Source: Marinobacter gelidimuriae
GTDB lineage: Bacteria; Pseudomonadota; Gammaproteobacteria; Pseudomonadales; Oleiphilaceae
Reading direction: 5' to 3'
Assembly (NCBI RefSeq): GCF_000372805.1
Contig: NZ_KB889941.1
Span: 1-64,000 of the forward strand
Length of the DNA stretch: 64,000 bases
Positions 34,946 through 40,213 of the stretch are shown piece by piece. Within the stretch, counting starts at the first letter, position 1. Every line of letters begins with the position of its first letter. The translations under genes and the position numbers were made by a program. The notes beneath the pieces are model-generated. The model searched no databases and was not told the DNA's origin. It worked only from the letters and a program-made list of their open reading frames with translations.

Positions 34946-35818
34946 ATGCACAAACCGTCCCGCCCGCTGGGCTCACCCGACACCTACAACGACCGAATTC
35001 GTATTGTTCTGGTGGAAACCTCCCACTCTGGCAACATTGGTGCGGTAGCGCGAGCCATGAAAAATATGGGGTTGGGAAATCTGTGGATGGTGAACCCGCG
35101 ATCGTTCCCGGATGAAACCTCGTACGCTCGAGCCGCCGGAGCATCGGATGTTCTGGACACTGCAACCGTGGTGGATAGTCTTGATGAAGCGCTGGCAGAT
35201 TGCGTGTTGGTTATGGGCACCAGCGCTCGCGGGCGCAAGGTGCCCTGGCCAGTGATGCCGCCGGATCAGGCCGTAACTGCGGCAGCCAGTCATTGCGGCC
35301 AAGGCACAGTGGCGCTGGTGTTCGGCCGAGAGAATCACGGGTTGAGCAACGATGAACTGCAACGTTGCCACTATCATATTCATATTCCGTCCAATCCGGA
35401 TTACAGCTCATTGAATCTGGCGATGGCGGTTCAGGTAATGTGTTATGAATTGCGCATGAGTTATCTGAAGGGCCTTGAAGCGGATGCCCGGCGGCCCTAT
35501 TTAGAGCCGATTGCGCAGCCTGGTGACGCCGGGTGGGACGTTGCTCCTGCCAGCGTTGGCGATGTCGAAGGCTTTTTTGGCCATTTGCAGCAGGTGCTGG
35601 AAGAAATCGATTTTCATCGCCGGGACAAACCGCGCCAACTGATGGCGCGTCTGCGCAGGTTGTTCCAGCGGGCGAAAATGGACCAGATGGAAGTTAATAT
35701 CCTAAGAGGTGTTTTGTCGGCCGTTCAAAAAACGGCAGGCGCCTCGGGAATCGAGCAATCAACCTCCGGTACCGGGCCACAAGCGCCGGAGCAGGACCAG
35801 GGCAAACGTCATGTTTAG
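34946..35818 (+). CDS. trmJ: tRNA (cytidine/uridine-2'-O)-methyltransferase TrmJ
   Basis: 290 aa. SPOUT-class methylase for position 32 of the tRNA anticodon loop: [25 protein letters not shown] in the first motif, [18 protein letters not shown] in the second, and [17 protein letters not shown] for the knotted SAM site. The C-terminal helical extension is family-typical. Its stop overlaps the cysE start, so the two are coupled. Confidence 0.92.
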
Positions 35819-36764
35819 ACATTTAAGAGAAGATATCAGCAGTGTGTTCCGCCGCGATCCCGCTGCGCGTAATACCTTTGAAGTTCTGACCAACTATCCT
35901 GGCCTGCACGCACTTTTACTGCATCGGGTGGCACACTGGTTATGGGGGGTGGGCCTGAAGTGGCTGGCTCGTACCCTTTCTACGCTTACGCGCTGGTTTA
36001 CGGGTATTGAGATTCATCCCGGTGCCACCATTGGTCGACGCTTCTTCATTGACCACGGTATGGGTGTGGTTATTGGTGAAACTACGGTCATCGGTGACGA
36101 TGTTACGTTATATCAAGGCGTTACCCTGGGCGGCACCAGCTGGAACAAGGGTAAGCGCCATCCCACCATTGGTGACGGAGTAGTTGTAGGCGCCGGAGCC
36201 AAAATATTAGGGCCCTTTGAAGTAGGCGCGGGCGCCAAAGTGGGTTCCAACTCGGTGGTCACAAAAGCGGTGCCAGCTGGCGCAACCGTTGTTGGCATAC
36301 CGGGCCGCGTGATTGAAAAAGATAAAGACGAGCAAAGCTCGCGGCGCCGGGAAATGGAAGAGCGCATGGGCTTTGACGCCTATGGCGTGACCGAAGAAAT
36401 GCCAGACCCCCTGGCGCGGGCAATGCGTTCGCTGCTCGACCACATGCACGCGGTAGACGACCGCATGGAAATAATGTGCAAAGCCTTGCGCAAGGTAAGC
36501 GCCGACTATCCGAACGGCGATTTGCCGGTGTTGTCAGAGGACGATTTTGATTGCCTACGCGATACAGACAGCGAGGCTTCGCGCAAAAAGAACCGCGAAG
36601 ACGCAAAAGTGGTTGCAGCGGCGGCGGTCGAGCCGAGCGCCAAAGCGGGTAGTATAGACAGTGCGAAGGAGAGCGCTGAAGAGAGTGTCGAAGAGAGTGT
36701 CGAAGAGAGTGTTAAAGCAGGCGCCAAGAAGAATGCAAGCGAGCCCACCAAGGATAGCCGCTGA
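35811..36764 (+). CDS. cysE: Serine O-acetyltransferase CysE
   Basis: 317 aa from the ATG at 35811. Left-handed beta-helix acetyltransferase: the [19 protein letters not shown] segment with the catalytic His, [23 protein letters not shown], and hexapeptide repeats up to PARVI-type ending near residue 170. It makes O-acetylserine for cysteine synthesis. Beyond about residue 250 there is an unusual charged tail with four repeats of a 12-bp unit (EESV), outside the catalytic fold. The neighbours iscR and iscS use the cysteine made. Confidence 0.9.
36666..36713 (+). repeat. 12-bp coding repeat in the cysE tail
   Basis: Three near-identical units GAAGAGAGTGTC/T (36678-36713) preceded by one diverged unit. 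They encode [16 protein letters not shown]. The copy number is likely to vary by slippage without breaking the frame. Confidence 0.75.
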
Positions 36765-36797
36765 ATACTTGACTGAATTAGTTGGTCAATTCATACT
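36765..36797 (+). promoter_or_regulatory. iscR promoter with overlapping IscR-type operator
   Basis: A -35 TTGACT (36769-36774) and -10 CATACT (36792-36797) with 17 bases between. The -35 lies in a dyad at 36765-36790 resembling the type 1 IscR site (ATAxYYGACTRWWWYAGTC). Expected: autorepression by [2Fe-2S]-IscR. Confidence 0.55.
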
Positions 36798-36841: not shown

Positions 36842-37339
36842 ATGAAGTTGACAACAAAAGGCCGGTACGCGGTAACCGCTATGCTGGACCTTGCACTGCA
36901 CGGTGACCATGGGCCGGTTACGCTTGCTGATATATCAGCCCGCCAGGAAATCTCCCTGTCGTACCTGGAACAGCTATTTTCGCGGCTGCGACGCAGGCAC
37001 TTGGTGGCCAGCATTCGCGGCCCGGGCGGGGGCTATCGCCTGAGTCGCGGCGCTGATGCCATTTTTATATCAGAGGTGGTAGACGCTGTCAGCGAGTCAC
37101 TTGACACCACTCGCTGCGGTAACAAAGGCGATTGTCAGAGCGGCGAGAAGTGCCTGACCCATCACCTTTGGACTGACCTCACCGAGCAGATTCATCAGTT
37201 CCTGGATAACATCAGCCTGGGCGATCTGATGAAAAAACGTGAAATCCGCCAAGTGGCGGACCGCCAGAATCTGCGCCAGAGCGATGCAGGTTGTGAAACG
37301 ATCAACACTCGGCTGCTCAGTGAACAGGCGCCGGTTTAA
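36842..37339 (+). CDS. iscR: Fe-S cluster transcriptional regulator IscR
   Basis: 165 aa from the ATG at 36842. Rrf2-family winged helix ([35 protein letters not shown]) with cluster ligands Cys92, Cys98 and Cys104 in [13 protein letters not shown] and His107. It senses Fe-S demand and controls isc genes. The usual iscS follows 17 bases later, but the rest of the operon is missing. Confidence 0.93.
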
Positions 37340-37356
37340 GTCTGGTTTTTAATACC

Positions 37357-38544
37357 ATGAAGAAACCTGTATACCTCGATTATGCGGCCACTACGCCCGC
37401 AGATTTTGCCGTTGCCGAAGAAATGATGCGCTACCTGACATTGGATGGCGCCTTTGGTAACCCTGCCTCGCGTACCCATGGTTATGGCTGGCAGGCCGAA
37501 GCGGCGGTAGAAACTGCACGCCGCCAGGTGGCCACATTGATCAACGCCGACCCCCGCGAAATCGTATGGACATCCGGCGCGACCGAGTCTGACAATCTGG
37601 CGATCAAAGGCGCGGTGGCCGGGCACGATGCGCCTCACATTATTACCTCCATGATCGAACATAAAGCCGTTCTGGATACCTGTGGCTGGCTGCAGGAGCA
37701 GGGCGTGAAGGTTACCTGGCTGAAGCCTGATGCCTGTGGGCGTATTCACGTCGGACAAGTGGTTGAGGCGCTGACGCCAGAGACCGTGCTTGTGAGCCTG
37801 ATGCTGGTAAACAACGAATTGGGCAGCATTAGTGACATTGCAGCCATTGGCGCCCAACTGCGCGGCCGCGGTGTGCTTTTTCATGTTGATGCGGCCCAGG
37901 CCCCCGGAAAAATACCGGTGGATGTAAAGGCCTTGAACGCCGACTTGCTGTCACTGTCGGCGCATAAGGTTTATGGCCCCAAAGGGATAGGCGCGCTTTA
38001 CGTGCGACGCTCTCCGGATGTGCGTATTCAAGCGCAGATTCACGGTGGCGGTCATGAGCGCGGCATGCGCTCTGGCACCCTGCCGGCGCATCAAATTGTG
38101 GGTATGGGTAAAGCGTTTGAGTTGGCGGCAGACAGCCTTTCTGCCGATAGTGCCAGGCTGGAACAGCTGCGTGGGCGTTTTCTTGGGGCGCTGGCAGAGC
38201 TTGAAGGGGTTTCTCTAAACGGGAGTCTCAATACCGGTCTCAACGGCAGTGAAACCAATGATGACGCCAAACTGCGAGTGCCTGGCATTATCAATTTGTC
38301 GTTCGCGGGCGTTGATGCAGAAACCCTGATGCTGGGCCTGCGTGAATTGGCAGTGTCTTCCGGTTCCGCCTGCACATCGGCGACACTGGAGCCATCTTAT
38401 GTCTTGCGGGGTATCGGGCTAGACGATAAGCAGGCTCACCGTGCGCTGCGGTTTTCATTTGGCCGTTATACCAGCGGCGAAGAAGTCGACTTTGCGGCGG
38501 CACACATTATTGATGTTGTTGGCCGGCTGCGGTCTGCGCGGTAG
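37357..38544 (+). CDS. iscS: Cysteine desulfurase IscS, without the C-terminal tail
   Basis: 395 aa. PLP enzyme that takes sulfur from cysteine: Lys204 in [10 protein letters not shown] binds PLP, Cys339 in [13 protein letters not shown] carries the persulfide. The protein ends at VGRLRSAR, while classical IscS continues some 20 residues that contact the scaffold IscU. iscU, iscA, hscBA and fdx are not downstream; ndk comes next. It can still serve tRNA thiolation and other sulfur uses. Confidence 0.88.
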
Positions 38545-38611
38545 GCACCGGCCCCGTGACTGCGTATAATTGCAGGCTCGTTTTTTATCCAACCTCTAAT
38601 GGAGAATCACC

Positions 38612-39040
38612 ATGGCAAACGAACGCACGTTGTCGATCATCAAGCCTGATGCCGTTGCAAAAAATGTAATCGGCAAAATCATCAGCCGTTTTGAAGATGC
38701 AGAGCTGCATGTTGTTGCAGCAAAGATGTCGCACCTTAGCCAGGAACAGGCCGAAGGCTTTTACGCCGAGCACAAAGAGCGTCCGTTCTTTAACGACCTG
38801 GTTGCGTTTATGACGTCTGGCCCGGTGGTTGTTCAGGCTTTGGAAGGCGAAGGCGCCATTTTGAAAAACCGTGATCTGATGGGTGCTACTAATCCGAAAG
38901 AAGCGGAAGCTGGCACCATCCGCGCTGACTTTGCATCGTCTATTGATGCCAATGCGGTTCACGGCTCCGACTCGGCTGCTTCCGCAGAGCGCGAAATTGC
39001 TTATTTTTTCAATGATAATGAAATTTGCCCGCGCGGCTGA
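38612..39040 (+). CDS. ndk: Nucleoside diphosphate kinase
   Basis: 142 aa, normal length. [12 protein letters not shown] at the start and the active-site His in NAVHGSDS. It keeps NTP and dNTP pools balanced. GGAGAA precedes the ATG. In relatives it also follows the isc operon. Confidence 0.95.
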
Positions 39041-39100: not shown

Positions 39101-40213
39101 ATGACAGCACTCGCTGAAAAAACAAATCTTCTGGGAATGCCCAAAGCCAAGCTTGAGGCCTATTTTGAATCCCTGGGGGAAAAACGTTTTCGCGCTACTC
39201 AGGTGCTGCAATGGATTCACCAGCGTGGTGTGGGTGACTTCGATGAAATGACCAATATGAGCAAGCCTCTGCGGGACAAGCTTAAGCTGATCGCCGAAGT
39301 ACGTGGCCCGGAAGTGGTCTATGACGAAGTGGCCAAAGACGGCACCCGTAAATGGGTAATGCGCATGGACAACGGCAACAACATAGAAACCGTGCTGATA
39401 CCTGACGGTGAACGTGGCACTCTGTGCGTGTCATCACAGATTGGTTGCAGTCTGGATTGCAGTTTTTGTTCAACGGGTAAGAGAGGCTTCAACCGTAACC
39501 TGACCTCTGCCGAGATTATTGGGCAGGTGTGGGCTGCGCGCAAAACGTTCATGCCCTATGCGCCGGGCCCAGATCGTCCGATTACCAACGTGGTGATGAT
39601 GGGCATGGGCGAGCCCTTGTTGAACTTCGACAACGTCGTAGACGCCATGAATCTGATGATGGAAGATCTGGCCTACGGCATTTCCAAGCGCCGGGTAACC
39701 CTGAGCACGTCGGGCGTGGTTCCAGCGATCGACAAGCTGGGTGAGGTTACCGATGTTTCATTGGCTATTTCTTTGCACGCCGCAAATGATGAGTTGCGTA
39801 ACCAGTTAGTACCTATTAATAAAAAGTACCCAATAGCAGAGTTGCTGGCCGCTACCCGCCGCTATTTGAGTCGTTTGCCAGACAAGCGCAAGGCAACCAT
39901 TGAATACACTTTGATGGCTGGTGTGAACGATCATGTCGATCAAGCGCGAGAACTGGCCGAGGTTCTGCGCGGCTTGCCGTGTAAGATCAACTTGATACCA
40001 TTTAATCCGTTCCCGGAAAGTGGCTATGAACGTCCGAGCATGAATGCCACCCGGCGATTCCAGACGGTGTTGAACGAGGAAGGGTATATTGCGACCGTAC
40101 GCATGCCCCGTGGCGATGACATAGACGCTGCTTGTGGGCAACTGGTGGGCAAGGTAGAAGACCGAACCCGTCGCAGTGCCCGTTACATTGCAGTGCAGCA
40201 GGTTTCAGCGTAA
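39101..40213 (+). CDS. rlmN: Dual-specificity rRNA/tRNA methyltransferase RlmN
   Basis: 370 aa radical SAM enzyme that methylates C2 of A2503 in 23S rRNA and A37 in some tRNAs. The cluster ligands are Cys116, Cys120 and Cys123 in [26 protein letters not shown] follows, and the C-terminal catalytic cysteine is in DIDAACGQL. Length and order (before pilW) are as in other Gammaproteobacteria. Confidence 0.95.

Follow-up and report, generated by a model that had tools for sequence, protein, structure and literature searches.

The locus analyzed here raises the question of what becomes of a cysteine desulfurase when the scaffold protein IscU is missing. The window, that is, the whole stretch of DNA that was analyzed (64,000 nucleotides of Marinobacter gelidimuriae), carries cysE-iscR-iscS-ndk-rlmN in this order, all on the + strand (Table 1). 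The initial annotation had described an isc operon reduced to iscR and iscS, with ndk directly behind iscS, and the gene calls of the window confirm that there is no iscU between the two; a gene for the ferredoxin Fdx is also absent next to iscS at this locus. The upstream neighbour of iscR, cysE, is the same at most loci of the genus. The encoded IscR has Cys92, Cys98, Cys104 and His107 in place and scores 221.5 against PRK10857, below the cut-off of 275.

Table 1. Features around iscR and iscS, numbered from the first letter of the window.
Feature	Position	Strand	Description
cysE	35709..36764	+	Serine O-acetyltransferase; TIGR01172 over cut-off; start codon uncertain
Putative IscR-like site AATACYTGACTRWWTTAST	36764..36782	+	Upstream of iscR; predicted from sequence
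iscR	36842..37339	+	165 aa; Rrf2-type Fe-S regulator; TIGR02010 over cut-off
iscS	37357..38544	+	395 aa; cysteine desulfurase without C-terminal IscU-docking tail
iscS-ndk gap	38545..38611	+	67 bp
ndk	38612..39040	+	Downstream neighbour; PRK00668 over cut-off
rlmN (name presumed)	39101..40213	+	Downstream neighbour; used as flanking marker

The product of iscS had been described as about 20 residues short at its end, and alignment with E. coli IscS and relatives agrees: the alignment with the E. coli protein stops at residue 382 of 404, and in a 136-row IscS alignment the last residue of the window protein falls on E. coli position 384, with the 20 residues 385-404 absent. No remnant of the tail was found in a three-frame reading after the stop codon. 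IscS profiles are the best matches of the protein and its active-site residues are present, with scores below both NCBIfam IscS equivalog cut-offs (543.6 against 548, and 530 against 643.2) and a match that ends about 20 positions short of the profile end. In E. coli, IscS without residues 376-404 fails to bind IscU (PMC2854127), and by its sequence the window IscS is without the segment 385-404 needed there for IscU docking. The 12 relatives of the order with ISC-type loci have an IscS of 400-404 aa, ending in SPLW(D/E)M...G(V/I)DL...W..H. Among 37 genomes of the genus, 35 have a tail-less IscS of 381-395 aa (382 aa in 26 genomes, 395 aa in G000, the genome of the window, and in G004 and G026), and in the other two the frame is broken, with a readable, tail-less end in G035 and an unreadable end in G036. 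Because the same gene order and a tail-less IscS recur across these genus genomes, the truncation is unlikely to be a sequencing slip. A 13-residue insertion in the region of residues 287-306 of the window IscS is shared with two close relatives, G004 and G026, and with no others of the 37 genomes (395 vs 381-390 aa).

Genome-wide profile searches of G000 (3.63 Mb, 136 contigs, completeness 100) gave no match for IscU (NifU_N), HscB (HSCB_C) or frataxin, and the best HscA score, 628.9 bits, was below the cut-off of 708.55. Cluster assembly had been predicted to depend on a SUF system or on relocated isc genes; the first part of this prediction held and the second did not, with no IscU, HscB or HscA over cut-off in the genome. 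SUFBD has four matches in two operons. The main suf operon, on C71, another contig than that of the window, is complete (sufB-C-D-S-A-T-E), with SufB, SufC, SufD, SufS (TIGR01979) and SufT over cut-off, SufE over the cut-off of PF02657 and below the NCBIfam equivalog cut-offs, and SufA over the subfamily cut-off TIGR00049 only (L055). An E. coli-like SUF set (sufB, sufC, sufD, sufS and sufE together) is present in G000. Two TusA-family proteins were found in G000 and at least one in each of the 58 genomes, by PF01206, a family that covers more than TusA proper.

The set of 58 genomes comprises the 37 genomes of Marinobacter and 21 from other families of the order. The order iscR-iscS-ndk was found in 37/37 genus genomes. 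SUFBD was present in 36 of them (the exception, G027, is 87% complete), and HscB, HscA over cut-off and frataxin were each found in none. NifU_N matched only in G015, where the match was rejected as IscU: it is a NifU-sized frame of 346 aa beside a NifS-like desulfurase. This NifU-type gene lies in a region (L057, G015:C34, 4881-12260) with large proteins nearby, two of which we take to be nitrogenase cofactor proteins. Among the 21 other genomes, IscU was found in 12, SUFBD in 11, and both in two (G040, and G047, there as a fragment at a contig end). Frataxin occurs in 5 of the 58 genomes, and 11 have HscB and HscA over cut-off, in every case together with IscU; G054 has IscU without HscB and HscA over cut-off. 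Named loci of Halomonas, Salinicola, Onishia and Oceanospirillum read iscR-iscS-(iscA-like)-ndk, and those of Idiomarina iscR-iscS-ndk. The contrast first drawn with relatives that keep a full operon is correct for those of ISC type; neither the idea that the reduction is peculiar to this genome nor that the arrangement is rare survived, the same order being found across the genus and in several relatives. The iscRS-only state is old, belongs to the whole sampled genus and several relatives, and is no event in this genome. The locus is confirmed and ordinary for the genus, and its value is comparative. That ISC and SUF exclude each other in Gammaproteobacteria (PMC10631705) and that there are SUF-only Pseudomonadales (PMC11559095) has already been published.

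Loss of the partner and loss of the docking tail had been proposed to go together, and the comparison bore this out. At named loci, some of which belong to organisms that are also in the 58-genome set, the tail is present in 55/55 with iscU downstream and in 0/25 without (agreement 80/80). Within the 58-genome set the tail is present in 12/12 genomes with ISC-type IscU; of the 46 without (including G015), 44 are tail-less and none has a complete tail, the other two being G053, with the decayed tail LSPQWRVFKEKQAAGH, and G036 with its unreadable end. In a sample of 369 genomes of the class, ISC-type IscU was found in 164 and the tail in 160 (both 157, IscU only 7, tail only 3, neither 202), with a cut-off for ISC-type IscU (E < 1e-35) that was set after seeing the gap from 9.4e-37 to 1.6e-31. 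Among the 226 of these with an IscS match at E <= 1e-90, the numbers are both 156, IscU only 3, tail only 3 and neither 64; all of these counts are rows, not events. Mixed cases include a NifU-sized frame of 372 aa in G359, a contig that ends just past the tail in G396, a weak tail match (4e-4) in G266 and an isc operon without iscU in G235. In two genomes counted as lacking ISC-type IscU, G327 and G157, an iscS with a decayed tail is followed by an IscU-like gene that has diverged.

Comparison of 67 IscS rows with IscU and 69 without, in E. coli numbering and with the partner map of PMC2854127, revealed that the loss extends beyond the tail. As 44 of the 69 IscU-less rows come from the 58-genome set and are mostly Marinobacter, the row counts overstate independence, because most of these rows represent one genus. 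Residues 393-399 are gone in 69/69 IscU-less rows and 385-392 in most of them. F89, R112 and R223, each invariant with IscU, are replaced without it mostly by G or A, mostly by K, and by D in 51/69, respectively, and E309, G310 and M315 also shift. Within a subset of 21 IscU-less rows, G039 alone retains F89 and G057 alone retains R112; R223 persists in Idiomarina, G044 and G057. Position 307 is F or Y in 7/7 rows with IscU and G in 18/19 without; the edge of helix 8 that contacts IscU begins two residues further on. On the other side, the active-site positions H104, K206, A327 and C328 are kept in 69/69 IscU-less rows, W45 is kept in all rows, position 52 is always E or D, and the IscU-less rows keep D65 (66/69), R220 (69/69), R225 (58/69), R237 (68/69) and M239 (67/69). 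R116 and E227 vary both with and without IscU. W45, D65 and R220 belong to the TusA side of the protein. In E. coli, W45, E49 and D52 have been tied to TusA, and R223 to CyaY, IscX and ThiI (PMC2854127); contrary to a simple retention of the TusA side, E49 is Ala in the window IscS and in 51/69 IscU-less rows. The supply of ThiI by IscU-less IscS may have changed, because ThiI binding in E. coli is also influenced by F89, R116, R223 and R340 (PMC2854127).

We read the locus as the remnant of a lost ISC operon, at a probability of about 0.72, on the observed basis of gene content, gene order, tail loss, residue patterns and a motif shared with suf. SUF, equipped with SufS as a separate desulfurase and with a SufE of its own, would have taken over cluster assembly. 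IscR would have been retained as an Fe-S sensor, and IscS as a sulfur donor to TusA and perhaps ThiI, serving tRNA thiolation, the molybdenum cofactor and other TusA routes. With IscU, HscBA and frataxin gone, the C-terminal helix, the helix-8 edge and part of the arginine patch would have been free to decay, released constraint being the suggested cause.

Control of suf by IscR is suggested by a 19-base motif, noticed first in G000, G001 and G013 ahead of both iscR and sufB. It recurred upstream of sufB in 18/18 genus members fetched later (17 exact, one with one mismatch) and upstream of iscR with 0-2 mismatches in 35/37 genus genomes. The iscR site is the sole match in the window at <=2 mismatches, where none is expected. 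In 1000 pieces of 300 bases drawn at random from the window, no match came with fewer than 4 mismatches, apart from four pieces with an exact match, which must be the iscR site itself because the window has no other such match. The motif resembles E. coli IscR type-1 sites, but an E. coli type-1 consensus had no match within 3 mismatches in the window. It is absent before the three second suf copies described below and before most suf operons of other families tested; before suf in G053 and G404 it occurs with two mismatches. IscR probably controls its own operon and suf through this shared predicted operator.

Analysis of the stretch between iscS and ndk in relatives revealed what else can occupy it. 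The 12 ISC loci read iscR-iscS-iscU-iscA, with ndk further on in the 8 where it was seen; where the window has its short gap, these relatives have iscU-iscA and further isc genes, and G053 and G045 have sufBCDSATE. The loci of the latter two are iscR-iscS-sufBCDSATE-ndk-rlmN and iscS-iscR-sufBCDSATE-ndk-rlmN, respectively, with the SUF cassette directly before ndk, where iscU to fdx normally sits. The order is iscR-iscS-sufBCDSATE in G041 and G042, and G056 and G404 match it up to sufT; ndk-rlmN follows about 4.4 kb past sufE in G042 and sufE-ndk-rlmN about 9 kb past sufT in G056, and no ndk was seen at the G041 locus. G039 and G044 each have an iscR-suf operon apart from an iscS-ndk locus. 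One family holds both states: G196 has cysE-iscR-iscS(tail)-iscU-iscA, and G404, which has no NifU_N match, has iscR-iscS(no tail)-suf. Tentatively, and with more doubt than confidence, the iscS-ndk stretch might be an exchange slot in which ISC and SUF modules were swapped more than once, IscS losing its IscU tail, helix-8 edge, R223, R112 and F89 after each swap and keeping W45, D65, R220 and the active site. If so, nature would have mutagenized a sulfur hub with several partners repeatedly in these genomes, and intermediate stages would be represented by the decayed tail of G053 and by the IscU-like protein of G327, in which two of three cluster cysteines are lost.

Two loci of the class sample deserve mention for this stretch. 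In G327 (L185, 1726-3278), an IscU-like protein (NifU_N, E=4e-25) without two of the three usual cluster cysteines lies between ndk and an iscS whose tail is decayed. In G235 (L188, 2295-7293), a tailed IscS is followed immediately by an IscA-like gene and then by apparent hscB, hscA, fdx and iscX, with no iscU; this genome has no NifU_N or SUFBD match, and the absence of iscU may be a real loss or an assembly fault.

Besides decay in place, the tail-less iscS might have arrived sideways, travelling with suf and recombining between iscR and ndk, which we regard as rather unlikely. This idea derives from a conflict among trees. In the IscS tree without the tail columns, IscU-less rows form either one group or two (2 changes among 56 rows; a single group is not rejected, p-AU 0.367), and with 28 rows IscS groups strictly by IscU state, with one change and support of 99/96. 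The IscR tree (26 rows) needs 7 changes and the ndk+rlmN tree (28 rows with known state) 6; both interleave the IscU states, with few single branches firm, and neither is compatible with a single clade of the IscU rows (p-AU 0.0019 and 2.9e-5). A count of one to two losses, taken from the IscS tree alone, is contradicted by these flanking genes. The whole topologies reject each other by 250 and 261 log units (26 rows), a difference spread over 262/406 columns, position 307 ranking first. In favour of sideways arrival, a nine-row test with the IscS data accepts the suf tree (p-AU 0.21) but not the flank tree, which is rejected (0.031); against it, neither the IscS nor the flank topology is accepted by the suf data, which reject the two. 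Four single groupings of the flank genes, examined with the IscS data under a richer model, were kept in two cases (p-AU 0.21 and 0.38), borderline in one (0.060) and rejected in one (0.011). The partly decayed tail of G053 points to decay in place, and long branches with parallel change could yield the same pattern. The direct topology tests are mixed on the number of losses, and parallel decay, a sideways transfer of iscS together with suf, and long branches are each possible causes of the disagreement between the IscS and flanking-gene trees.

Less probable still, the tail-less IscS might continue to make Fe-S clusters as a second desulfurase that feeds the SUF scaffold. The position of iscS directly before sufB in G053, G041, G042, G056 and G404 would suit such a role, and mycobacterial IscS without other isc genes was reported to aid Fe-S proteins (PMC10848736, PMC8300815). 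However, suf has its own sufS in those operons and in G000, with a SufE homolog in most, iscS and suf lie apart in the genus genomes, and W45 and R220, kept in 69/69 IscU-less rows, point to TusA. That iscS is a decaying gene without a selected role, on its way out, is very improbable: its branches in a tree, judged by eye, are longer where IscU is absent than where it is present, but its frame is open in 35/37 genus genomes and its active site is intact in every IscU-less row. An assembly gap or sequencing error hiding iscU and the tail can be dismissed, for although G000 is a draft of 136 contigs, the locus lies within one contig, its order is the same in 37/37 genus genomes, and the single-contig genomes G004, G011, G026 and G028 all show iscR-iscS-ndk and none has a NifU_N match.

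The remnant reading has parallels in known systems. The alphaproteobacterial isc-suf operon (Caulobacter, Rhodobacter; PMC11475020, PMC6956336) likewise keeps iscR and iscS with SUF, in the iscRS-suf order of G053, G041 and G042, and in Caulobacter IscR was reported to control it (PMC11475020). In Marinobacter, by contrast, iscRS and suf lie apart, and IscS is of gammaproteobacterial type, 58-63% identical to the order's ISC-type IscS, while 34.9% was reported between the Caulobacter and E. coli proteins (PMC11475020). Mycobacterium tuberculosis has iscS without iscU, iscA, hscA and hscB, with SUF as its main system, as here; the accessible part of that paper describes no iscR beside it and does not discuss the tail (PMC10848736). 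Within the wider group, ISC was replaced by an E. coli-like SUF (SufABCDSET) in Halopseudomonas and Pseudomonas phragmitis; the accessible part of that account does not treat leftover iscRS or the IscS tail and has Marinobacter only among the outgroup (PMC11559095). The E. coli operon iscRSUA-hscBA-fdx-iscX shares with the window the iscR-iscS order, the IscR ligands and the IscS active site, but the window is without IscU, HscBA and the IscS tail. For the coupling of tail and IscU, the slot exchange and the surface pattern, no report was found in literature on ISC and SUF in Marinobacter, Halomonas and Idiomarina, on IscS partners, on ISC/SUF replacement and on the missing C-terminus, which does not prove that none exists. 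The loci provide a comparative, mutant-free test of which IscS surface serves which partner, and easily grown SUF-only gammaproteobacteria in which the role of IscS in tRNA thiolation is separable from ISC cluster assembly.

In addition to the main suf operon, G000 carries a second suf set on contig C3 (L056, 2227-9581), with sufB-C-D-A and a fusion-like protein whose first third matches NfuA and the rest SufT, both below cut-off; no match for sufS or sufE was found in this stretch. The set was probably acquired from within the genus, because its SufB nests among the SufB sequences of other members. It is also present in G004 (L058) and G026 (L093), and in L056 it adjoins genes for a mevalonate-diphosphate decarboxylase and a GHMP kinase.
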